DNA of 64,000 bases, from NCBI GenBank assembly GCA_028285755.1, contig JANQOQ010000006.1, forward strand, positions 868,001 to 932,000, read 5' to 3'. Made by a program: the position numbers and the translations under genes. The notes beneath the pieces were generated by a model that saw only the letters and a list, made by a program, of their open reading frames with translations, was not told the DNA's origin and searched no databases. The stretch comes from Puniceicoccaceae bacterium. GTDB taxonomy: Bacteria; Verrucomicrobiota; Verrucomicrobiia; Opitutales; JAFGAQ01. Positions 17,328-41,755 of this stretch are shown piece by piece (position 1 is the stretch's first letter; the number at the start of each line of letters is the position of its first letter).

Positions 17328-18380
17328 TCACAGATAGCCAGCTCCTCTCAAAAGAATGGCCTCCCCTGTATATTCTGCCTCGATGCCAAAAGTAGCCGAA
17401 AGTAAACTCACAAACCCATCGACTTTGTTCGAACGAAAAGTTGCAACAATTTCAATGGATGCAATCTGCGGATCAGCAATGATGAGCTGAATCTTATTAT
17501 AACGATTAAAGGCTTCAACAGCATCGGCAAGTTGAACAGAATCAAATTTAAGGGTTATGGGTTTCCAGGAAAGGGATTCAGAGATATCAGCCTGACTAAT
17601 CTCGCTGACCATAAATCCATCTTCGCTATTTGAGTTTCGATGAACAATCGCTTTCTGGTTGCTCACCAACAACTGCGGGGGTGCTGAATCATTACTCACG
17701 CCCTCTATATTAGCTGAATTCCCCAAAGGGGTTACAGACATTTGAACTGATCCTTCAGTGATCAATACTTCCACGGAATTCGCTGCATACTTGACGTTGA
17801 ACTCAGTGCCTAATGCCCGTAAACGAGTACCGCCTGCATAAACATCAAAGGGTCGCTCGTAATCTTTTTCTACCGTGAAATAAACCTCTCCCGACCTTAC
17901 CCAGAATTTTCTGTATTCTGCAGTGTATGCAAAATCTATGACTGTATTTTCGTTTAATTCAACGGTTGAACCATCCTCCAGAGTAAATAAGTCGGAATCC
18001 TCATAGATCAGCGAACGCATCTGCGATTCGGTAGATGGTATGTCAGGAGTGTTATTGAGAAAGATGCCCGCAAAGCTCAAAGCGAACAATGCCGCTAAAC
18101 CGGCACCCCAAGCGAATCGGGAGAATACCTTTGGAGACTCGGAGCGTGCGGAGTTGTTTTCACTGAATACAGGATCTTCCGACTCAAAGTTCTGCTTTGT
18201 TAGGATTCCGAAACGCTTCCAGCCGTTTTTGTAGCGTGCAAGTGCTTCTTGACTGCCGGGTTGCTTTAGCCATTGCTCTAGCTCGGTCTTTGAATTTGAG
18301 TTTAAACCATCCTCAAGTCGGATAACCCATTCAGCTGCCTGATCATCAAGATCGTATGATGGTGGTAAGTTCTTTTTCAT
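17328..18380 (-). CDS. FecR-family anti-sigma factor
   Basis: Inner-membrane anti-sigma/signal relay protein: it holds the ECF sigma encoded just upstream and passes the receptor signal to it. The cytoplasmic N-terminal domain is typical (AAEWVIRLEDG, about 15-25; LEQWLKQPGSQEALARYKNGWK). One membrane segment spans about 91-108. The periplasmic FecR domain follows (FTLEDGSTVELNENTVIDF, VRSGEVYFTV, RALGTEFNVKY, ITEGSVQM), then a C-terminal STN-like region (DSVQLADAVEAFNRYN) that would contact the receptor. The start codon is one base from the sigma stop codon, so the pair is co-translated. Confidence 0.93.
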   Translation of the reverse strand: MKKNLPPSYDLDDQAAEWVIRLEDGLNSNSKTELEQWLKQPGSQEALARYKNGWKRFGILTKQNFESEDPVFSENNSARSESPKVFSRFAWGAGLAALFALSFAGIFLNNTPDIPSTESQMRSLIYEDSDLFTLEDGSTVELNENTVIDFAYTAEYRKFWVRSGEVYFTVEKDYERPFDVYAGGTRLRALGTEFNVKYAANSVEVLITEGSVQMSVTPLGNSANIEGVSNDSAPPQLLVSNQKAIVHRNSNSEDGFMVSEISQADISESLSWKPITLKFDSVQLADAVEAFNRYNKIQLIIADPQIASIEIVATFRSNKVDGFVSLLSATFGIEAEYTGEAILLRGAGYL

Positions 18381-19185: not shown

Positions 19186-20583
19186 CTACTTCCAGCTGAG
19201 TCGGGGTTCATTAAGAAATTGCTCTACGTAATTCTTTAATCGGGAAGCGATCTCAGGATGCTCTTCCAAAAGATTTTTCACCTCACGGGGATCGTTTTCA
19301 AGATGGAACAACTCGACAGGTTCAGTTTCGTTAAGCAGCAGCTTCCACAGTCCGTCATACGCAACCGTAGTTGCGTAGGGCTTGGGCTTGGGATAATGCC
19401 GCTGCATCTGCCTGTATAGATCCAGTTGCCAGAGCAAGACGCCTCGCTCGATCCATTCCTGATTGACTAAATTGGGCAACAAGCTGATTCCGTCCAACTC
19501 AAGGCTTTCGTAAGAAATCCCAACAGCTTCACAGAGTGTCGGTAACAAGTCAGTATGGTGTCCGGTCTGGAAAGAGACCTCCGCTTCGGGAATATGGCCC
19601 GGCCAGACTGCAAAAAACGGAACCCTTATGCCTCCCTCGTGCAGATCCGTTTTACCTCCCTTGAATGGACCCACCTCCGGTTCCCAGGCAGCTCCGTTAT
19701 CAGACGTAAAAATGATTAATGTATTTTCATACAACCCCAGTTTCTTAAGTGCTTTTATCATACGCCCTACATTTTCATCCAGATGCGAAACCATGGAGCG
19801 AAAGTATAGCTGGTCCCCGGTAGCGCCCATTTTCGCGTACTTGCTGAGATGGGGTTCAGGTGCGGGTTCATAGGGAGTGTGTGGTACATCAAACCACAAA
19901 TTCAGATAAAACGGCGTGTCTTCTGCCTTCCATTTTTTGAAAAGTCGAATGGATTCATCCACTTTGATATCAGTCCAATGCCGAGGGTCTTCGGGAGCAC
20001 GCCTATCATTGCGCACCATGTATTTGCCCCCTTCACGGTAAAGCTTGCGCTCCTGAATGATCGATGCACGCGGGGGATCACCCTCAATACTCGTTAGCGA
20101 ATGCTCGAAACCATGTTGCAATGGCCCGGGGTTGGCTTCCTTGCCAGTGCTTCGTGCTTCAAAGTCCTTTATGCGCATACCGCCCAGGTGCCATTTACCG
20201 ATATGAGCGGTTGCATACCCTTTCTCTTTGAGTAATTCAGGAAGAGTCACCGAGTCTGGATGTAAATATTCGTCGCGGTCTGAAAAGTGTCGCGTAATCC
20301 CAAAACGTAGAGGATAGCGCCCCGTAAGAATGGCAGCCCTGCTCGGAGTACAAACCGCAGATGCTGAATAAAATCGAGTGAAGCGCGTGCCTTGATGGGC
20401 AAGAGCATCGATATTTGGTGTGTGCACCGCATGGCCCCCATAACACGTTAGGTCTCCATAGCCCATATCATCCGTAAGCATCAAAATGATGTTTGGAGGT
20501 CGGTTCTCAGCATTAGCCGAGAACACGCTTACAAATATGACACAAGTAAATATAAGACTATTTTTCCGAAGCTTCTCTTTCAT
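19186..20583 (-). CDS. Sulfatase (formylglycine type), exported
   Basis: Type I sulfatase, 465 residues, with a signal peptide to about residue 25 (FSANA). The metal site begins NIILMLTDDMGYGD (Asp38, Asp39). The modification motif is SAVCTPSRAAILTGRYP with Cys78; IGKWHLGG, TSDNGA and EGGIRVPFFAVWPG also match. It should remove sulfate esters from the glycan handled by the neighbouring receptor. It is transcribed on the minus strand towards the sigma gene, from its own ECF-type promoter at 20657-20683, leaving a leader of about 70 bases. The maturase for formylglycine is not encoded here. Confidence 0.93.
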   Translation of the reverse strand: MKEKLRKNSLIFTCVIFVSVFSANAENRPPNIILMLTDDMGYGDLTCYGGHAVHTPNIDALAHQGTRFTRFYSASAVCTPSRAAILTGRYPLRFGITRHFSDRDEYLHPDSVTLPELLKEKGYATAHIGKWHLGGMRIKDFEARSTGKEANPGPLQHGFEHSLTSIEGDPPRASIIQERKLYREGGKYMVRNDRRAPEDPRHWTDIKVDESIRLFKKWKAEDTPFYLNLWFDVPHTPYEPAPEPHLSKYAKMGATGDQLYFRSMVSHLDENVGRMIKALKKLGLYENTLIIFTSDNGAAWEPEVGPFKGGKTDLHEGGIRVPFFAVWPGHIPEAEVSFQTGHHTDLLPTLCEAVGISYESLELDGISLLPNLVNQEWIERGVLLWQLDLYRQMQRHYPKPKPYATTVAYDGLWKLLLNETEPVELFHLENDPREVKNLLEEHPEIASRLKNYVEQFLNEPRLSWK

Positions 20584-21463: not shown

Positions 21464-22999
21464 TTAATTGCTGCGAAAATACTTGGATGGATCATAATCT
21501 GGATTTGCTTTGAGCGGAAACGGCGCACCTGTGAGAGCCCGTTTCTTTTCCAGTTCTTTATAAAGCAATTTCACGATTTCGGGCTGCTCAGTCGCGATAT
21601 TGCGGGTTTCTCCGATGTCTATGGATAGATCATAGAGTTCCAGCTCATCTCTCTCAAAAAACTCGATCAACTTGTAATTACCACGCCTCACGGCATTCAC
21701 GGGAGTGGTTCTCCAGGCAGGAAAAAGGTTGCTTGGATGAGGCTCGACGGCTCGCTGTTGTTTGATTTCACCGTCAGCAGTTAAATGTAGTTTATGGGTG
21801 ATGCCATCGCGCTCATATCTTTGCCAGTTATAGCTGTCCAAATAGACCGGTACATACCAAAAGAGCGTGCGATTGATGAGTGAAGGGTCAGTCCCCTTTA
21901 ACAATAGATCTTTTAAGCTTCGACCATCGCTGGTGTAAGCTTGCAAATCTGCTCCCGCGATATCCAGAAAAGTCGGATAGATGTCCGTACCGTTAACCGG
22001 TATATCATAAGTGGCGGGCTGCTTGATTTTAGCAGGCCACTGCAAAAAAAGGGGCACTCGGATACCGCCTTCATAGATCGTTCCCTTACTTGCTCGCAAC
22101 GGCTCGTTTGTTGTCGCCAGTGCATAGCCGCCGTTATCTGAATAAAAAAGAATAAGGGTATTCTCACGAAGATCGTTCTGTTCCAAGGACTCCAATATCC
22201 TCCCAAAACTCTCATCGAGACTATGCATCATTGCTGCATATGTCTCATCATAACCCCCCCGGGGATTGTGTTTGCTTTTATAATAATCAACGAGCTCAGG
22301 CTTTGCCTCAATGGGTGTATGGGGCGCAAAATGGGATAAATACAGAAAGAAGGGTTCATCCTTGTAGTCTACAATAAACTCTATAGCTTCATCAGTGAGG
22401 CGATCCGTTAAATATTCTCCTTTGGGTCCATCTTCGATATCCGGATTGTTGTAAGGGCTAAAGAATGAGGGTGGTTTAGATATACGATTACCCCCTACAT
22501 TAACATCAAAACCATGCGCCAGTGGGCCGTCTTCGTCGCGCCCAAGATGCCATTTACCGATATGTGCGGCTCTATAGCCCAATGTTTTTAATACTTCAGG
22601 AAATGTGTTCACACTAGGATTCAGCACACGCTTTTGTTCGGGGGGGATCAACTTTCGTGACCAATCCGGTCCTCGGGCTGCCGAAGCGGGGATGTAAATC
22701 TGGTGCCGGGGCGCATAATGCCCGGTCATTAGGCTTGCACGGCTTGGACTGCAGAAGGGTGCATTCGCATAAGCACTGGTAAAGACAACCCCCTCGCGTG
22801 CAAATCGATCAATATGGGGAGTTTCATAGAATGGATTCCCATGATACCCGACATCCATCCAGCCCAGGTCATCACAGTAAAAAAGTATGATATTGGGTGG
22901 AGCATTGTCGGCTTGTGTTTGAAAGGTAAAGCCGCACCAAATACCTACAAAGCAAAGTAGATTTATCAAAGGCTTAATGATAATTTTAAAATGAAACAT
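21464..22999 (-). CDS. Sulfatase (formylglycine type), exported
   Basis: Type I sulfatase of about 511 residues. The start at 22999 gives a normal signal peptide (MFHFKIIIKPLINLLCFVG); a GTG at 23032 lies inside a hairpin and is less likely. The metal site is NIILFYCDDLGWMDVG, the modification motif FCSPSRASLMTGHYAPRH, and IGKWHLGRDEDGP, YSDNGGYA and EGGIRVPLFLQWP complete the family pattern. It is the last gene of the second sigma, FecR, STN, TonB cluster and should act on the ligand of that receptor, probably a sulfated polysaccharide. A 12-base hairpin between receptor and sulfatase may set their expression ratio. Confidence 0.93.
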   Translation of the reverse strand: MFHFKIIIKPLINLLCFVGIWCGFTFQTQADNAPPNIILFYCDDLGWMDVGYHGNPFYETPHIDRFAREGVVFTSAYANAPFCSPSRASLMTGHYAPRHQIYIPASAARGPDWSRKLIPPEQKRVLNPSVNTFPEVLKTLGYRAAHIGKWHLGRDEDGPLAHGFDVNVGGNRISKPPSFFSPYNNPDIEDGPKGEYLTDRLTDEAIEFIVDYKDEPFFLYLSHFAPHTPIEAKPELVDYYKSKHNPRGGYDETYAAMMHSLDESFGRILESLEQNDLRENTLILFYSDNGGYALATTNEPLRASKGTIYEGGIRVPLFLQWPAKIKQPATYDIPVNGTDIYPTFLDIAGADLQAYTSDGRSLKDLLLKGTDPSLINRTLFWYVPVYLDSYNWQRYERDGITHKLHLTADGEIKQQRAVEPHPSNLFPAWRTTPVNAVRRGNYKLIEFFERDELELYDLSIDIGETRNIATEQPEIVKLLYKELEKKRALTGAPFPLKANPDYDPSKYFRSN

Positions 23000-31903: not shown

Positions 31904-31934
31904 GAAGGCTTCGAGCAATCGAAGCCTTCTTCAT
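31904..31934 (+). terminator. Intrinsic terminator, possibly bidirectional
   Basis: GAAGGCTTCGA (31904-31914) pairs perfectly with TCGAAGCCTTC (31919-31929), followed by TTCATTT. It lies between convergent genes. Confidence 0.75.
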
Positions 31935-32815
31935 TTACTGGTTGTTTCTACAACAAATTCGTCATTTGAAATACATCTAGCTCCCAAAGGAAAACCTTCA
32001 AATTTTTGATGATATGCATTCTTACTAGATTTAAAGGCAGCAATTGTGTCCTTATCATTTGTAACCAAGGTATATGGCTGATTGATATCCAAATATGATA
32101 TGATCAATCCATCTTCAAAGTCATTTCTATCAGTACTAACACACTCAGGCTTACCCCCAGATTTTTCTAATGCGCTTCTAATTCTTGCATACCAATATCC
32201 AGAGTAAAAGAATCTTGATTGGCCTAGTTTCCCAACGAGCTCTGGTTTTTCTAATAGACCATGTTCAACACAAGAGCTTTTCAAATCGCTCAATATGAAT
32301 TGTGCTAATAATTCATCGCTTATAGAATCTAAGTTGTTTGCTGTAAGATAACTACTCAACTCTTGGGCTGCCTGAGCAAACTCTGATAAGTAGGACTCTT
32401 CAGATTCATTTAATACCACTCGCGTCATTTCGGCAATATTGTCACATGTTTTAACTTCCCCATTAGATAGTAAAACATGGCTCTTCTCAAAATCATGCAG
32501 AGATTCGCAATTTTCAAGATTTGCCAAGATCTGAGTGATGATTTCAGGATCTTCAAATCTGCTGGGGTCAATTCTATCAGCTATTCCGATTTGCTTTGCA
32601 TGGTGCGCTATGGGGTCATCTAAGATAGACATCAGTTTGCACTTCAGAACATTCCCCCTTTGTCTTAGGAAGCTATTTGTAGCTGTTCCTTCATCCAAAT
32701 GACTTAATAATTCCCACACTGATATGGTCGAAATCCGAAGATCGTGATTCTCTTTAGTTAATCGTAAGATTTCTCCAGAAATGCCCTTTATTGCACTAGT
32801 GTCTAGAACATACAT
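31931..32815 (-). CDS. PIN-domain protein, large form (294 aa)
   Basis: Predicted metal-dependent ribonuclease of the PIN fold. The first acidic residue is in MYVLDTSA (Asp5), a second site is STISVWELLSHL, and the C-terminal acidic cluster is RNDFEDGLIISYLD with LVTNDKD. At 294 residues it is about twice the size of a VapC toxin, with a helical insert at about 100-200. No antitoxin-like gene stands directly beside it. It lies back to back with the small recombinase gene. It may be a stand-alone nuclease with a defensive or stress role; that is inference. Confidence 0.6.
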   Translation of the reverse strand: MYVLDTSAIKGISGEILRLTKENHDLRISTISVWELLSHLDEGTATNSFLRQRGNVLKCKLMSILDDPIAHHAKQIGIADRIDPSRFEDPEIITQILANLENCESLHDFEKSHVLLSNGEVKTCDNIAEMTRVVLNESEESYLSEFAQAAQELSSYLTANNLDSISDELLAQFILSDLKSSCVEHGLLEKPELVGKLGQSRFFYSGYWYARIRSALEKSGGKPECVSTDRNDFEDGLIISYLDINQPYTLVTNDKDTIAAFKSSKNAYHQKFEGFPLGARCISNDEFVVETTSK

Positions 32816-32865: not shown

Positions 32866-33489
32866 TTAAAGGAATAGCCGTGAAACAGTTTCTACAAACT
32901 GTTTCATGTCAAGCAAAGCCTTATCCAGCCTGGATTTTTTTGGCCATATACTTTTCGCATAAGCGATTTCCTCTTCGCTTACAAAATCCATGTAAACAAC
33001 AGTGCTCGACAAGTGCCTGTGTCCCAACCACTTTTGAATAAGGTTGACCGGAGTGGTTTTGCTCACATGAGCGACCGCATATGAATGCCGAAGCCCTTTC
33101 GGCGTCGCCCGACTGCCCTCCAGTTCGACTTGTTTCATGATCTCCTTGATGACACGCCAGCCGGTTGTCCGTGAAAAATCAAAGACCCGTTCATGGGTTT
33201 TCTTGCCCATCGTTATATAGCGTAAAAGCGCTAAAACCTCAGGCGGCATAATGATAAAACGGTAGTTGGTTTTGCTTCTTTGCTTAAGTGATCTAATGAC
33301 AATCCCTTCTACATCGTAGTCAATCCGTCCCACCAATAGAGCCAGAATTTCCGAAATCCGTGCACCCGAATAATACATGACCAGGGCGAAAGCCCGTTTC
33401 TTGGAGTCTTTGAAACCGATGGCAGCCCGAAGGAATGCTTCGCGCTCCGGCTCACTGAGATATTTACGTATTCCCTGGGTGTAAAGCAT
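32866..33489 (-). CDS. Small tyrosine recombinase (catalytic domain only)
   Basis: Site-specific tyrosine recombinase with the catalytic set Arg (YSGARISEIL), Lys (RSKTNYRF), HxxR-like GLRHSYAVAH, HR in WLGHRHLSSTVVY and the nucleophile Tyr in VVYMDF. At about 207 residues it has only a short N-terminal part instead of a full core-binding domain. The ATG at 33489 is preferred; the frame extends to 33576 but then includes the second recombination-site copy. The last residues (MKQFVETVS) are encoded within a 26-base palindromic site, and an inverted copy lies just upstream of the gene. The gene could therefore act on its own flanks. Confidence 0.8.
   Translation of the reverse strand: MLYTQGIRKYLSEPEREAFLRAAIGFKDSKKRAFALVMYYSGARISEILALLVGRIDYDVEGIVIRSLKQRSKTNYRFIIMPPEVLALLRYITMGKKTHERVFDFSRTTGWRVIKEIMKQVELEGSRATPKGLRHSYAVAHVSKTTPVNLIQKWLGHRHLSSTVVYMDFVSEEEIAYAKSIWPKKSRLDKALLDMKQFVETVSRLFL
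32881..32906. repeat. Palindromic recombinase-type site 1
   Basis: Perfect 11-base arms, TGAAACAGTTT and AAACTGTTTCA, around CTAC. It lies inside the 3' end of the recombinase gene. It is inverted relative to site 2, as judged from the centre CTAC against GTAG. Confidence 0.65.
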
Positions 33490-33509
33490 GACGGCGTTAA
33501 TCAAAAGAA

Positions 33510-33535
33510 TGAAACAGTTTGTAGATAGTGTTTCA
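33510..33535. repeat. Palindromic recombinase-type site 2 (inverted copy)
   Basis: TGAAACAGTTT, GTAG, ATAGTGTTTCA; the first 16 bases match the reverse complement of site 1 exactly and the right arm is degenerate. It lies 20 bases upstream of the recombinase ATG, in the shared region with the divergent gene. Confidence 0.6.
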
Positions 33536-33641
33536 GAGTATGAAAACACGCTCCCATCATGCCACAAGTCGCCCAAATGACCAAATATTGCGTTTCAGCA
33601 CCAGGAATGTTATAAAAGGAGTAAGGAAAAGGAGATCGCTT

Positions 33642-34091
33642 ATGGCCTCAGGCCTGAGATCAAAACTGAAAGCTGCGGCTGCCGGATTCACCGCAGGGGC
33701 AATGACATTGCTGCCTACTGTTAGCTTTTCTAAATCGGCTAAATCTGATGAGGCTACTGGCATCCAAGCTTCTCTCGACACATCTTCTATTCCATCCGTA
33801 GAGCGTAAGATTGCCTATCGTGCCTCGACTGATCAAGTTGTGCTCCACTACGGTGAAGGCATCCCAGATGTAGCCATGATCGCTTTCGAAAATGTCGCTG
33901 AAGAGAAGAATTATCCTGTGGATGTATTCGCCGGAGGCGAACCTGGTATGGTGGAAATGTTCATTCATCGCAAGCCGGTCGGCAAATACACCCGTGGACA
34001 ACTGGCAGACGGAACCGTCGCCGGTCACATGCAGTATTTTTATGAAAAAGTTGTGGGCTCACGGCCTGATCTTAGAACCGCTTCACTCTAG
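33642..34091 (+). CDS. Exported hypothetical protein (149 aa)
   Basis: The ATG at 33642 is chosen because AAGGAAAAGGAGA lies just before it. The N-terminus has a short basic part and a hydrophobic run (KLKAAAAGFTAGAMTLLPTVSFS), an export signal or anchor. The remainder (VVLHYGEGIPDVAMIAFEN, EEKNYPVDVFAGG, GMVEMFIHRKPVG) has no known family. It is divergent from the recombinase gene, and its stop overlaps the stop of the next gene by four bases, tail to tail. Confidence 0.6.
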   Translation: MASGLRSKLKAAAAGFTAGAMTLLPTVSFSKSAKSDEATGIQASLDTSSIPSVERKIAYRASTDQVVLHYGEGIPDVAMIAFENVAEEKNYPVDVFAGGEPGMVEMFIHRKPVGKYTRGQLADGTVAGHMQYFYEKVVGSRPDLRTASL

Positions 34092-35098
34092 GAATTCCCA
34101 ACATTCAACGTCGTAGCCGGATTGCTTTGTAGATTGGTTTCAGGCTGAGCGTCTAACTGACCCTCGAGTAGCTTGAAATAGTCCTCGTCAAACAAGTGCT
34201 CAGTATCTTCTTCCATGGATAAAAGCTCCCTAGCAGCTTCCGAGGCACTATCAATGAGCATCTTTTCTTGCCGCATGCGTTCGATGGGATCTTCCAATTT
34301 TTGAAGCCTTGCGAAGTCTTTCATAAATTGCTCGATTTCCACATCAGAGATTTCAACCAGGCTATTATCTAAATCGTCACGCAATTCTAGCTGCGTATCT
34401 GGCAGCACACTCTTCTTTTCAATTTCAATCTGTGAGCTATTGGATTGCCAGCCTTGCTGGAAGAGGGTTTCGTATGCCGCTACCCCCTCTTCCGCCGAGA
34501 TTTTGCCTACTTCCAGATCATTCTCGATATCAAGGTCTTTTTGCTCGAGAACCGCCGTATACTGTCGATGCCATTCGCCTAATTGCTCGAGCACATCTGG
34601 ATCATCCCGATCAAATTCCTTACCGGTAATGCGCTCATATTCCTTAATCGCATTTTCGATTTCTTCGTTCAGGTATTTGCCATCCGGCCCCTGAATGGTT
34701 TTACCCAACTTCATGTCTGCCAAGGCCTGTTCAATGGCATCCGCATAGCGATTATGGTTTTTGATGGCATCTCGAATCTGTGATTGTAGGCTATTCAGGC
34801 GCAACATAATGTCGCCAAGGCTATCTTTTTTCTTTTCCTTGGCGTTTGAATGTAGAAACTGAGCATCCTTAAATCGATCCGTTCCCCTCAGAGAACTTTC
34901 CTCCAAAGCGCCAATCGTGACCTTAGCGGTTATTTGCTCATGCTCTTTTCGCTCACCCTCAAGCACATCCGCACGGAGTTCATCGGGCGTTTTTACTGCG
35001 TCGTCGTAGATATCGGGAAGAATGCCCTGATTCCACCTAGCACCATACATTTCCTGCGCACTAAGCGCTTTAGCCCCTTGATCACTCATATGTCCCAC
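34088..35098 (-). CDS. Coiled-coil hypothetical protein (336 aa)
   Basis: No family is recognised. A highly charged, soluble, mostly helical protein with long heptad-like stretches (IMLRLNSLQSQIRDAIKNH; DVEIEQFMKDFARLQKLEDPIERMRQEKM in parts). ATG codons at 35098 and 35089 are both possible. It is part of the leading region between recombinase and integrase. Transfer-linked structural or regulatory proteins of this look are frequent but undefined. Confidence 0.55.
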   Translation of the reverse strand: MGHMSDQGAKALSAQEMYGARWNQGILPDIYDDAVKTPDELRADVLEGERKEHEQITAKVTIGALEESSLRGTDRFKDAQFLHSNAKEKKKDSLGDIMLRLNSLQSQIRDAIKNHNRYADAIEQALADMKLGKTIQGPDGKYLNEEIENAIKEYERITGKEFDRDDPDVLEQLGEWHRQYTAVLEQKDLDIENDLEVGKISAEEGVAAYETLFQQGWQSNSSQIEIEKKSVLPDTQLELRDDLDNSLVEISDVEIEQFMKDFARLQKLEDPIERMRQEKMLIDSASEAARELLSMEEDTEHLFDEDYFKLLEGQLDAQPETNLQSNPATTLNVGNS

Positions 35099-36263: not shown

Positions 36264-36516
36264 AGACATGCAGATACCTCCAATCATCTATTCCAAAAAT
36301 TTACATGAATATGTGGGCGTAAAAGCCACCAAGTGGCGTGAGCTGCGTAAACTCGGTATCGCCCCGGAGCCGAAATATCGCTCAAAACATGGGGATGTTT
36401 ACCATGGATCAGACATTGAGGTATTCCTAGGAATCAGACCACCTGCTAGAGTGAAGGATTCAGTGATTAACCCATTTGCAGAAGGATTAAAGAAACTTGA
36501 CCAACTTAAACATTAA
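36253..36516 (+). CDS. Excisionase-like small protein
   Basis: About 83-87 residues; ATG at 36253 or 36268. The sequence YSKNLHEYVGVKATKWRELRKLG followed by GDVYHGSDIEVFLGI fits a winged-helix DNA-binding fold of excisionase size. It overlaps the integrase start by 20 bases, the usual position for a recombination directionality factor. Confidence 0.55.
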   Translation: MRAKDMQIPPIIYSKNLHEYVGVKATKWRELRKLGIAPEPKYRSKHGDVYHGSDIEVFLGIRPPARVKDSVINPFAEGLKKLDQLKH

Positions 36517-37606
36517 ACTGGCTCCTCACTGTAAGGTTCGCGCCAGAAAAGATCACTATGTTATATACTTTATACCGCCTAAGCACATGCGACCGAAGAA
36601 CTGGCCACCGAGCCTGGAGGTCGGTAAAACCAATAAGCATAGCGCTCAAGAGCTGAAAGCACGTAGTCATGAGCTATACGATGATTTTGTGTTGGCCCGA
36701 ACGGGTCATAAACCGGATACGCGCGTCAAGAAAGGATCTTTGAGCTATATCATTGCCCGATACAAAAAGTCGGAACATTGGTTAAATCTGAGTCCTCATA
36801 CCCAAAGAGGCTATGAGCCGATGCTTAAAGTCATAGCTGACTGGTGCAAGGCATCGGGCCACCCACACATCAAACACATGGGAACCAAGGAAATTGTGGG
36901 TTTTCTTAATCGTTGGCAGGACACACCCAGAACGAGGAAAAACTATAAGTCCGTTCTATCTAAATTGTTTCAGGTAGCCATTGAAGAAAATCTCGTTAGT
37001 GACAATTTGGTTCGCAAGATTACCCTACCAAAATCACACAAGCGCAAAGACACTTTTAAGGTTTGGACACTGGCTGATATCGAGCGTTTCATTAAAGTAG
37101 CCGATCAAATCGGCAAACCCAATGTGGGCACTGCGGTTGCCATCGCTTGGGAAGGATTTAGGCAAACCGATGTTTTTAATCTTCAAGAACCCAGAGACTA
37201 CACGAATGGGTTCTTCCGTTTCAAAACCAGTAAGACAGGCGAAATCATCAAAGTTGAGGTCTCACGCTATGACACCATAAAGCGATTATCCCGCAGGCCT
37301 AAATCTCAATTACTTTTAACGGTTAATGACTCCACCCAAATGCAATGGGGTAAATTGTCCTTTTATCATATGTTCAAGGAGGTAAGAGAGGCCGCTGACA
37401 TGCACGAATACGTTTTTAGGCATATCCGCAACAGCGCAGCCATTTATGCTCTCAAAGCTGGCCTAAACGATGCTGAATTCAAACAACGCTTTGGCTGGTC
37501 TAAAGACCAAGTTCAAGATATGGTCGATTATTACACCGATATCGACCAGGAAATCATCGATTCGGGGGCGGCAAAGTTGAGAGACTTTGCCGAAAAATCC
37601 CGATGA
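36497..37606 (+). CDS. Tyrosine integrase (tRNA-Leu site type)
   Basis: Site-specific integrase, 369 residues. There is an N-terminal arm-binding region (about 10-60), a SAM-like core-binding domain (SPHTQRGYEPMLKVIADWC, about 100-170) and the catalytic domain with Arg in WEGFRQTDVF, Lys in KTSKTGE, FRHIRNSA, FGWSKD (Trp in the usual second His position) and the nucleophile in VDYYTDID. The frame begins with TTG, 20 bases inside the preceding gene. Its 3' end faces a tRNA-Leu(CAA) 3' half only 70 bases away, which should be its attachment core. Confidence 0.9.
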   Translation: MTNLNIKLAPHCKVRARKDHYVIYFIPPKHMRPKNWPPSLEVGKTNKHSAQELKARSHELYDDFVLARTGHKPDTRVKKGSLSYIIARYKKSEHWLNLSPHTQRGYEPMLKVIADWCKASGHPHIKHMGTKEIVGFLNRWQDTPRTRKNYKSVLSKLFQVAIEENLVSDNLVRKITLPKSHKRKDTFKVWTLADIERFIKVADQIGKPNVGTAVAIAWEGFRQTDVFNLQEPRDYTNGFFRFKTSKTGEIIKVEVSRYDTIKRLSRRPKSQLLLTVNDSTQMQWGKLSFYHMFKEVREAADMHEYVFRHIRNSAAIYALKAGLNDAEFKQRFGWSKDQVQDMVDYYTDIDQEIIDSGAAKLRDFAEKSR

Positions 37607-38076: not shown

Positions 38077-38424
38077 ATGGCGAGGCCGCGTTTACCTATA
38101 TCCAGGCGTAAGTCCAAACAAGTTTCATTCTATGTGACTGAGGCAGTCTACCAGAAACTTGCGGATGACGCCGGGCGGGTGAGCATGAGTCCGAATGAGC
38201 TGGCCAGAGAGCTTATGCTTTCAGGTCATAACCGTCTGGTGCTCAAGACTCATGCTTTCAGTGACCCTGCTCTACTCAAGCGTGTCGAACACATTGCGTG
38301 TATCCTACAGCCGCTCGTAAAGCAATGCTACACCTTTAAGGAAATAGATCCAGAACTCACACAGCTCTGTAAAAGTCTCCAGAAGCTTATCGATAAAAAC
38401 CTGGAGAGTATTTCCCAAAGATGA
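38077..38424 (+). CDS. MobC-like relaxosome accessory protein
   Basis: DNA-binding accessory protein of the mobilisation system, 115 residues. The N-terminal half is a ribbon-helix-helix motif (KQVSFYVTEAVYQKLADDAGR, then MSPNELARELML); the C-terminal half (HIACILQPLVKQ) matches MobC-type proteins. It would open oriT and load the relaxase. It lies just behind oriT and overlaps the relaxase gene by four bases. Confidence 0.75.
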   Translation: MARPRLPISRRKSKQVSFYVTEAVYQKLADDAGRVSMSPNELARELMLSGHNRLVLKTHAFSDPALLKRVEHIACILQPLVKQCYTFKEIDPELTQLCKSLQKLIDKNLESISQR

Positions 38425-39662
38425 ACCCGAAAGAAGCCAAGAAAGGTCGATCTCCCCATGGAGCCTGGCTCTACCATGCTCATGATCACCGATCACTAAC
38501 CCGTGATCGTATCGGCTTCTTTCATACCGTGAATATCCCCACTGAGGATATAGATAAGGTTTGGAAATTCCAGGCGTATACGTTAATGAACCGTAATCGG
38601 TTACTGATTGCTGCTGGGCAAAAGCCTAGCAATAAGAAATTGGAAGCTGCTATCTTCCCTATTTCCTGGAATTTCCATCCCGATCATCCACCCACCGAAG
38701 AGCTGATGATCAATATTGGCCTGCAAACCCTACAAGTTCTAGGCTTGCAGGAACACGAGGCATATTTTGTGGAGCATACCGACACGCCTCATAGGCATTT
38801 TCATATTATCGTGAATCGGGTTCATCCGATTACTGGAATTCTTGGAAAGGACTCCCATAGTAAACGCAAGCTCTCAGAGCTTGCGCTCAAGCTATGCCGA
38901 GAGCATGGTCTTGAGCATTTAGCCCCACAACGGGTAGAAAATGCTCAAAAACGGGAACTGGGAGAAACTACCAAGTATCATGATCCTCGCATTGCTCAAG
39001 CTTGGGAAAACAGCTCATACGGGCAGGATTTCATATCTGCTTTGGTTGAAAATCAGCTCTATCTGGCTCAAGGCCGCAAACGTCTTGTTTTGGTCGATGC
39101 TCGCGGTAAAACCCAAAATCCGCTACGGCAAATAAAGGGTGTAAGAACCAGGGAATTTCGGGAAAAACTAAGCAAGGGTTTTAACCTATCAACCTTGCCT
39201 GACGCTGAGCAAGTCATTGCTACCTTAAAATCGGGCAAGTCTCCCAAGGGCTTATACCCCGATTTTGTGGATAAACCTCAAGCAACTGATACTTTAAAGC
39301 AGCAGTTCAAAGCTCATCTTGAGGCACTCAAGCAGCGTTACCAGTTACCTCAAAAACAAGCAGTCATCCGACGTTTACACCAAGAGATCAAGCACCTTCC
39401 CTGGTGGAAAAAGCTGCTAGGATTTGGAATCTGGAAATCGCGTAAATTAAGAAAATGTATCCAAGATTATTCAGTTTCCAAGCAAACCACCATCGCAGAA
39501 TTTCAGCAGTGGAAGGCTAACAATCAGAGACAATCATCTAATGTAAATTCTGGTAATCGTTTGTATAAATCACTCAAATATCCGCACAAAGGCAATTATC
39601 CTAGACCTCCAAATGTACGAAGCAGAATATCGAATCCAGGACCAACTATATCGCCAGAATAA
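38421..39662 (+). CDS. mobA: MOBP-type relaxase (mobilisation nuclease)
   Basis: Relaxase that nicks oriT and stays bound to the 5' end of the transferred strand. The three-histidine signature HTDTPHRHFHIIVNRVHP (His119, His126, His128, Asn132) is intact; a candidate nucleophile is Tyr18 in GAWLYHAHDH. The domain covers about 1-170, and the remainder is a basic helical tail. At 413 residues there is no primase or helicase part. It is translationally coupled to MobC and lies downstream of a matching TATCCTG oriT. Confidence 0.88.
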   Translation: MNPKEAKKGRSPHGAWLYHAHDHRSLTRDRIGFFHTVNIPTEDIDKVWKFQAYTLMNRNRLLIAAGQKPSNKKLEAAIFPISWNFHPDHPPTEELMINIGLQTLQVLGLQEHEAYFVEHTDTPHRHFHIIVNRVHPITGILGKDSHSKRKLSELALKLCREHGLEHLAPQRVENAQKRELGETTKYHDPRIAQAWENSSYGQDFISALVENQLYLAQGRKRLVLVDARGKTQNPLRQIKGVRTREFREKLSKGFNLSTLPDAEQVIATLKSGKSPKGLYPDFVDKPQATDTLKQQFKAHLEALKQRYQLPQKQAVIRRLHQEIKHLPWWKKLLGFGIWKSRKLRKCIQDYSVSKQTTIAEFQQWKANNQRQSSNVNSGNRLYKSLKYPHKGNYPRPPNVRSRISNPGPTISPE

Positions 39663-39716: not shown

Positions 39717-40130
39717 TCAATTTTTCCATGGGTTGATCAAATGAATACCTGTATTCTGAAAGTCCTTTGTGTTGCGGGTTACTACACTCAAAGAATATAC
39801 ATCAGCGGTTGCGGCTATCAAAGAGTCCTCTACAGCTAATATTCGACCCGCAAGCCTTTCATTGGCTCGCATGATAGCCGCATTTTCTGCAATTTCCAGG
39901 TTTACAGGAATCACTTTTCCTGAGTGCTTGGATCTAAGCTGGGTAATCCAGCCCAGCAGCTTTTCTTGCCTGGCGCTGTCGTTTACAGCGTGTGCGCCAT
40001 AGTATAGCTCGTGCATTGTAACAACTGACAAATAGGCTTGCTCAACTGAGCCACAGTAAGCCAATATAGTAGGATTAGGCTGAGGCCTAGCCAATTCTGA
40101 CACGACATTGGTATCAAACAAAACAGACAT
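39717..40130 (-). CDS. vapC: VapC-type PIN-domain toxin
   Basis: Ribonuclease toxin, 137 residues. The PIN acidic set is intact: Asp6 in LFDTNVVSEL, Glu in TMHELYYGA, Asp in AVEDSLIAATA and the RNTKDF end motif. Toxins of this kind cut tRNA or rRNA when freed from their antitoxin. It follows the antitoxin gene by eight bases, so the pair is an addiction module of the element. Confidence 0.9.
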   Translation of the reverse strand: MSVLFDTNVVSELARPQPNPTILAYCGSVEQAYLSVVTMHELYYGAHAVNDSARQEKLLGWITQLRSKHSGKVIPVNLEIAENAAIMRANERLAGRILAVEDSLIAATADVYSLSVVTRNTKDFQNTGIHLINPWKN

Positions 40131-40468: not shown

Positions 40469-41755
40469 TCAGCGTCGATACCTGACTGATTTTCGCAGAG
40501 CATGAGCGATCAAACCGGCAGGGTGACCCTGCAATGCGCGATAAACCTCAGCTCCTCGCCTCATCCTTCGTAGTAGTTCTTTCTGATTGATTGAATTGTT
40601 GCGACTAGTTTTTTGCGCATATTTGGGAAGCTCCGCCTTTATTTCACGCCTCATACGCGGCCCAATTTCAGGATCTAATGCCGAATCCAAATCGTTAACG
40701 ATCACATTCTCATGAGATACTTGCTGATCAGGCTCGTGAGATAGTATCTGATTCAATTGGGCTTCACCAACCACTTGATAGAGCTGACTAAGCTGCTCGG
40801 AATTCAATACCTTCAATTGTCGATCCAAAACTAACTTACGGTTACTATGTGCCATCTTGCTCGTTCGCCAATCTTTCACAAAATCCTGTATCAATTGCGT
40901 AGACGGTTGCTTCAAAAATGCATCCTGGTATTCCGCTTGAAAGCGTTTAATCGCGTCACCTCTACTGTCTTTAATGAAGTATTCGATGCGTTTCTTAGTG
41001 GGTATTACGTCAAACATAGCCTCATATCGCTTTTCAAAAGCTTTTCGCTGTTGAGTCCTTACTGAAAACGCTTCTTCCATACTCCGGTCTATCCCGGATA
41101 AGCGAAAGCTTTCACCCTGCCATTCAACACCATAACCGAGTTGCTGGCAGGCTTCAGCCAAGTCCTGATAAAACAGATGGCGTATACTCTCCTTGCTTGC
41201 CTCGAGCATTTCACGCGGCTGAAGCGCTTTCCAGCCCTCCCCTTCGACCCAGGTATGATTTGAAAAAACCAGATGCGCATGAAGCTGCGGCTCCAATAGA
41301 CGACTGGTATCGTGATGATATATTGCTGCTACCGCGTTGCCGGTTCTTATCGTATTTTCACTTTGGTTAGCATTTCCCTTGCGGTCTCTCGCAGAAGCAT
41401 ATGCTTCTAATCGCCTAAATGTCCTCTGAACTACTTGCTCAAAAGCTTCGACAACTCGCTCATCTTCGCCGACCATCGCGACAATGCTAACAGACTTCGG
41501 AGCTGATATCACCACATCATGAAAAGCGACCTTGGAAGTGCGCGGCCTCAGCCTTTCACCAGTTACCGGATGTAAATTACCTCTTAAAGATTCAAAGGTT
41601 TCTGGTGACACCGTATGGCTTTCGATTCCAAGTATCTCAGCAGCCCTTCCTCGCCAATAACCAACTACGGCTTCCCCCTCAGAATAATAATCATTGGCAT
41701 TTAAATGCCGTGCCATATATTGCCGCCCTCTTCTGATTTGGTTTGCCGTGATCAC
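40469..41755 (-). CDS. MOBF-type relaxase (TrwC/TraI relaxase domain without helicase)
   Basis: Second relaxase of the element, of the other major class. The catalytic tyrosines lie in RQYMARHL (Tyr13) and NDYYSEGE (Tyr23, Tyr24), followed by GYWRGRAAEILG; FHDVVISAPKSVSIVA and the metal site HHDTSRLLEPQLHAHLVFSN complete the TrwC pattern. TrwC and TraI carry a large helicase behind this domain; here the protein stops at 428 residues after a basic helical tail. It could nick its own oriT but would need a helicase from elsewhere. A hairpin with a TrwC-like nic string lies at 44076-44140. Confidence 0.88.
   Translation of the reverse strand: MITANQIRRGRQYMARHLNANDYYSEGEAVVGYWRGRAAEILGIESHTVSPETFESLRGNLHPVTGERLRPRTSKVAFHDVVISAPKSVSIVAMVGEDERVVEAFEQVVQRTFRRLEAYASARDRKGNANQSENTIRTGNAVAAIYHHDTSRLLEPQLHAHLVFSNHTWVEGEGWKALQPREMLEASKESIRHLFYQDLAEACQQLGYGVEWQGESFRLSGIDRSMEEAFSVRTQQRKAFEKRYEAMFDVIPTKKRIEYFIKDSRGDAIKRFQAEYQDAFLKQPSTQLIQDFVKDWRTSKMAHSNRKLVLDRQLKVLNSEQLSQLYQVVGEAQLNQILSHEPDQQVSHENVIVNDLDSALDPEIGPRMRREIKAELPKYAQKTSRNNSINQKELLRRMRRGAEVYRALQGHPAGLIAHALRKSVRYRR

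Follow-up and report, generated by a model that had tools for sequence, protein, structure and literature searches.

The window, by which we mean the whole 64-kb stretch of DNA analysed here, contains a small tyrosine recombinase gene lying between two 26-bp palindromic sites in inverted order, and matched pairs of such sites accompany related recombinases in several bacterial phyla. We think it rather probable that these parts form an inversion switch that would disconnect the recombinase from its own promoter and that is carried by a mobilisable island.

The Recombinase and Its Two Sites

The protein encoded between the sites belongs to the tyrosine recombinase superfamily. It starts at an ATG and matches the Phage_integrase family (PF00589; Table 1), and the residues of the R-K-R-H-Y active site (R44, K69, R134, H157, and Y166) were invariant among the aligned relatives. 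The Pfam match begins at residue 11 and covers the catalytic domain only. An N-terminal core-binding (SAM-like) domain is usual in this superfamily, but it is reduced or missing in small members and is not strictly defining; Pfam detected none in the window recombinase, as in other members the size of a catalytic domain. Profile matches in the PDB were to XerA, XerD, and XerH, and the NCBIfam models for XerA and XerD matched below their cut-offs. The FimB/FimE-type invertase models (NF007370 and NF007371) gave 42 and 41 bits against cut-offs of 221 and 222, which places the protein outside the FimB/FimE-type DNA invertase family.

A previous sequence-only reading of this DNA had proposed two 26-base sites, one within the last recombinase codons and one just 5' of the start, and both were present exactly there. 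Site 1 (TGAAACAGTTT-CTAC-AAACTGTTTCA) is a perfect 11-4-11 palindrome with 11/11 matching arm positions, and site 2 (TGAAACAGTTT-GTAG-ATAGTGTTTCA), which ends 20 nt before the recombinase ATG, is palindromic at 9/11. The 4-nt centres were also as read: CTAC is the reverse complement of GTAG, which puts the two sites in inverted order. No further copy of the palindrome was found in the window and none in 100 dinucleotide shuffles of it, and the exact motif TGAAACA-N12-TGTTTCA occurs in the 4.25-Mb genome at sites 1 and 2 only. The recombinase reading frame (region 32866-32906) runs through site 1 and terminates past it, unlike that of the relatives compared, which stops before the downstream site in 13/13.

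TABLE 1. Coordinates of the recombinase, its sites and the neighbouring island features in the window.
Feature	Position	Strand	Basis or remark
Downstream neighbour of the recombinase gene, PIN-like on visual inspection only	31931..32815	-	Outside the bracketed segment
Small tyrosine recombinase, 207 aa	32866..33489	-	Pfam Phage_integrase, E = 5e-18; invariant residues
Site 1	32881..32906	.	Palindrome; shuffle and pair statistics
Site 2	33510..33535	.	Core inverted relative to site 1; shuffle and pair statistics
Putative recombinase promoter, sigma70-like and weak, GTGGCA-17-CATACT	33537..33565	-	Outside site 2, so outside the segment that could flip
Divergent small protein, signal-peptide-like N-terminus (by eye)	33642..34091	+	Recurrent neighbour type in relatives
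Coiled-coil-like protein, its gene convergent with that of the exported protein	34088..35098	-	Related islands have similar neighbours
Island-encoded tyrosine integrase, full length	36497..37606	+	Pfam Phage_int_SAM_1; weak NCBIfam XerA/XerD
MobC/NikA-like mobilisation protein	38077..38424	+	Pfam NikA-like, 2e-4, below cut-off
MobP-type relaxase of the island	38421..39662	+	NCBIfam TraI_MobP_relax, 1e-18, below cut-off; ORF

The Putative Island and Its Genes

Judging from the genes listed in Table 1, the recombinase appears to sit in an integrative mobilisable island on the chromosome. Direct repeats marking the island ends were searched for between positions 18000 and 48000, and none were found. 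Near the MobP relaxase, the minus strand encodes a VapC-like PIN protein (39717-40130) and a second relaxase-like protein, TrwC-like (40469-41755), both recognised by eye. A 61-nt direct repeat (20183-20243 and 22542-22602; 74% identical, 2.36 kb apart) probably lies in paralogous genes.

The gene downstream of the recombinase, called a PIN gene in the sequence-only reading, had no Pfam hit at a threshold as lenient as E = 0.5, leaving its name unconfirmed, and Pfam likewise returned no match for the divergent small protein. Among relatives, a divergent protein of exported or membrane type is a frequent neighbour of the recombinase. In several Opitutales loci (L065, L066, L067, L068, L074, L075, and L019) this neighbour has a PEP-CTERM-like sorting signal at its end (Pfam E = 0.0012 for that of L066), often accompanied by a conserved protein of about 70 aa and a membrane protein (DUF6082-like). 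In L066 (G128:C3), a 1098-aa type II Cas9-like protein (by eye) is encoded directly downstream of the recombinase cassette, at about 0.7 kb.

The same genome holds a second copy of the recombinase (45% identity) in a second island (L059; C2, 214000-233900), with a relaxase, a MobC-like protein, and an integrase in the same part order as in the window. The inverted sites of this copy enclose a gene for a 1019-aa SIR2 protein, the N-terminal part of which is ThsA-like (PADLOC, E = 2.5e-22), and the second site lies 3.7 kb away, past this gene.

Matched Pairs Among the Relatives

Relatives were drawn from the same order (the genomes sampled including Cerasicoccus, Pelagicoccus, and Puniceicoccaceae), class, and phylum, from GTDB genomes, and from plasmids. 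The profile search of genome contigs returned no relatives with a two-sequence alignment and 80 loci with a ten-sequence alignment. Viral contigs yielded no relatives of the recombinase, and phage records gave weak matches only.

A site pair with matched cores was recovered near the recombinase in 58 of 114 non-redundant loci; all 58 were inverted and none direct, which is the arrangement that site-specific inversion would require. With shuffled flanks, one matched pair appeared in 20 rounds (1 in 2,280). The site model behind this count was built from the arms of previously found sites, so that it favours neither matching cores nor an orientation, and the pair step demanded cores matching in either sense. 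When neither core nor orientation was constrained, a scan of 94 relatives recovered 18 pairs. Each was inverted and had spacers that were exact reverse complements, against six inverted pairs and one direct pair in a control of 926 mismatched pairings. Over the whole fetched flanks, the unconditioned scan again found inverted pairs only, including one pair with near-symmetric arms that scores equally both ways and whose core matches only when inverted. No matched pair was present in roughly half of the relatives, among them every plasmid copy examined. The sequence-only reading had named relatives devoid of the second site as evidence against it, and it withstood this comparison, the matched pair being kept in the 58 loci.

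The central 6-7 bp were identical between the two sites in 34/34 pairs. Within 3 nt of the centre, 0/224 positions differed between paired sites versus 58/670 farther out (p = 4.6e-8, a somewhat optimistic value given some close relatives among the 34 pairs). The cores themselves vary from locus to locus, with 45 distinct ones across the 58 loci, and they changed in concert between close relatives: from ACGG to AAGG in L164/L168, from CATGGG to CATGGA in L162/L163, and from GCTGGA to GCTAGT in L102/L127. Tyrosine recombinases require an identical overlap region in both crossover sites, and because of this requirement the identity and covariation of the cores fit sites that recombine together. 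With inverted half-sites and an identical overlap in the 6-8 bp range, the pairs have, as far as their sequences tell, the make-up of crossover pairs.

A Single Resident Orientation

Conserved neighbours were found upstream of the recombinase in every case (19/19, 19/19, 7/7, and 4/4), and the aligned flanks of relatives always had the same sense. Relatives with the opposite orientation, which the sequence-only reading had suggested looking for, were sought by aligning flanks and inner segments, with HMMs of the neighbours, and in close genera, and none was recovered among comparable assemblies. The two orientations by which an inversion system is recognised in nature were thus not both present in the assemblies compared. 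The suggestion that the palindromes are inversion sites holds for the pair, always inverted and matched in its cores, but the flip itself was not seen.

Since all comparable assemblies share one orientation, the flipped state must arise rarely, last briefly, or depend on particular conditions. An OFF state devoid of recombinase would be hard to leave, so that frequent and harmless inversion should have left some flipped assemblies. Either inversion is rare or conditional (on transfer, for example), or flipped copies are lost, being unable to return. Because only one orientation was seen, we infer inversion rather than assert it and keep resolution of the circular form as its main rival.

Plasmid and Chromosomal Copies

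According to this rival, the recombinase would resolve dimers of a circular form of the island through like sites, which are direct repeats in such a dimer, and the inverted partner would be incidental or would help to regulate the enzyme. The closest relatives of the window recombinase on Acetobacteraceae plasmids adjoin ParA, ParB, and Rep genes, which recalls plasmid multimer resolution of the Xer/Cre/ResD type, and the nearest plasmid-borne relatives lie in recombinase-ParA-ParB-Rep clusters. Matched pairs are missing from the clade that the plasmid copies form, and three of these copies (L026, L027, and L029) carry two sites upstream whose cores are unmatched and differ in length. Relatives occur in these Rep/Par clusters; the window copy lies in a chromosomal island with a relaxase and an integrase, and island copies have the matched inverted pair that plasmid copies lack. 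In this sample, the pair thus appears to go with chromosomal copies of the recombinase. Resolution does not predict that 58 loci, among which 45 different cores occur, should each retain a second site with an exactly inverted core, and we consider it unlikely.

Upstream palindromes about 85-110 bp apart, with unmatched cores mostly differing in length (5 and 6 nt), were observed in the Bacteroidota loci L085, L087, L113, and L115 as well as in the three plasmids; one of the two may be a crossover site and the other an operator. A solitary palindrome of the same type (TGAAACAGAATCCCGTAAACTGTTTCA; L060, G004:C62:24437-24463) lies between convergent genes, with no recombinase of the family within the 19 kb fetched.

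Two Layouts of the Bracketed Segment

The matched pairs came in two layouts. In the first, that of the window, the sites bracket the recombinase (39 loci), with centres 0.62-1.9 kb apart, and the longer segments carry cargo. In the second, found mostly in Alphaproteobacteria and also in Flavobacteriaceae, they bracket a short segment upstream of the recombinase, with a stretch of about 110 bp between them (19 loci). The segment lengths accordingly fall into two classes, of 128-148 bp and 621-1862 bp, and reach 3.8 kb in L059; on these figures, they are too variable for one fixed accessory complex.

The cargo inside some pairs, such as the ThsA-like SIR2 gene of L059 and a PIN gene in L078, would suit a minimal mobile cassette, made of the recombinase with or without cargo, with the pair as its terminal inverted repeats. 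We rejected this very improbable explanation on the second layout, in which the recombinase of 19 relatives lies outside the pair; in addition, the upstream neighbours are conserved together with the recombinase, and the window, inspected by eye, showed no flanking target duplication.

In the first layout, the best -10 box ended within -13 to +2 nt of the start of the upstream site in 16/27 comparable loci, against about 3.6 expected (p = 3e-8, a value that ignores relatedness). The recombinase promoter thus probably lies beyond the segment, which would contain the ribosome-binding region. In the second layout, promoter-like sequences were predicted inside the segment, mostly directed toward the recombinase, although this bias was slight (mean 7.5 versus 6.1).

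The abutment of the upstream site on the predicted promoter, the suitability of palindromes for dimer binding, and the single resident orientation are all features of a scheme in which the palindromes are operators only and the recombinase represses its own promoter, perhaps through looping, with no strand exchange between the sites; however, operators need neither an asymmetric core match nor a fixed orientation, and the exact, inverted match of the cores, which would not be expected of plain operators, led us to reject this scheme as highly implausible. The repressor sites that the sequence-only reading had offered as an alternative are disfavoured in their pure form by the same observation.

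A Putative Self-Silencing Switch

In the inversion switch that we favour, the recombinase would bind each 26-bp palindrome as a pair of 11-bp half-sites and exchange strands across the 6-7 bp core. As the cores are in inverted order, the 0.6-kb segment holding the recombinase gene would then invert. In the recorded orientation, the promoter predicted just outside site 2 would drive the recombinase; site 2 would belong to the 5' leader, and the segment would contain the ribosome-binding region. Inversion would thus part the gene from its promoter and silence it. In the 19 relatives of the second layout, flipping the upstream stretch would likewise silence the recombinase, since the promoter-like sequences mostly face it. 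The switch may set a neighbouring gene or a state of the island.

The self-limiting inversion switch imagined in the sequence-only reading was in this way strengthened in part, by a likely promoter beyond the upstream site and by the inverted pairs of the relatives, while its flip went unobserved. The broader possibility that island recombinases widely silence themselves by inverting their own gene or promoter, as a one-shot timer, and that some flip a defence gene too, is one we put forward tentatively, with slightly less than even confidence.

Discussion

By analogy, the window system would work most like an inversion of the Fim or Hin type, although the tests made place it in neither family. 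With the Fim-type invertases (FimB/FimE acting on fimS), it shares a small tyrosine recombinase, short inverted sites, and an adjoining exported protein, and the short segment of the second layout resembles fimS. It differs from them in that the window segment is the recombinase itself, in that the sites are 26-bp palindromes with locus-specific cores, and in its scores far below the invertase cut-offs. The Hin, Gin, and Cin systems also use 26-bp palindromic sites (hix and gix), and Hin is encoded inside the segment that it inverts, as the recombinase is here; however, these are serine recombinases assisted by an enhancer, whereas the window encodes a tyrosine recombinase whose promoter is predicted outside the segment. 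Another tyrosine recombinase, FLP of the yeast 2-micron plasmid, acts on inverted palindromic FRT sites of its own element, which is also the case proposed here. The FRT sites separate two large halves of the 2-micron plasmid and function in copy-number amplification, whereas the segment in the window is mostly the recombinase gene and the island is integrated. In the open literature, we found no account of this recombinase family or of a tyrosine recombinase inverting its own gene.

If the proposed switch is real, it would represent a natural self-limiting recombinase that has its own gene as substrate and is conserved across several phyla, its sites evolving fast and yet always forming a matched inverted pair. 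The 45 cores would then amount to many orthogonal site pairs for DNA-inversion tools, and the system would join the biology of mobile islands with phase variation.
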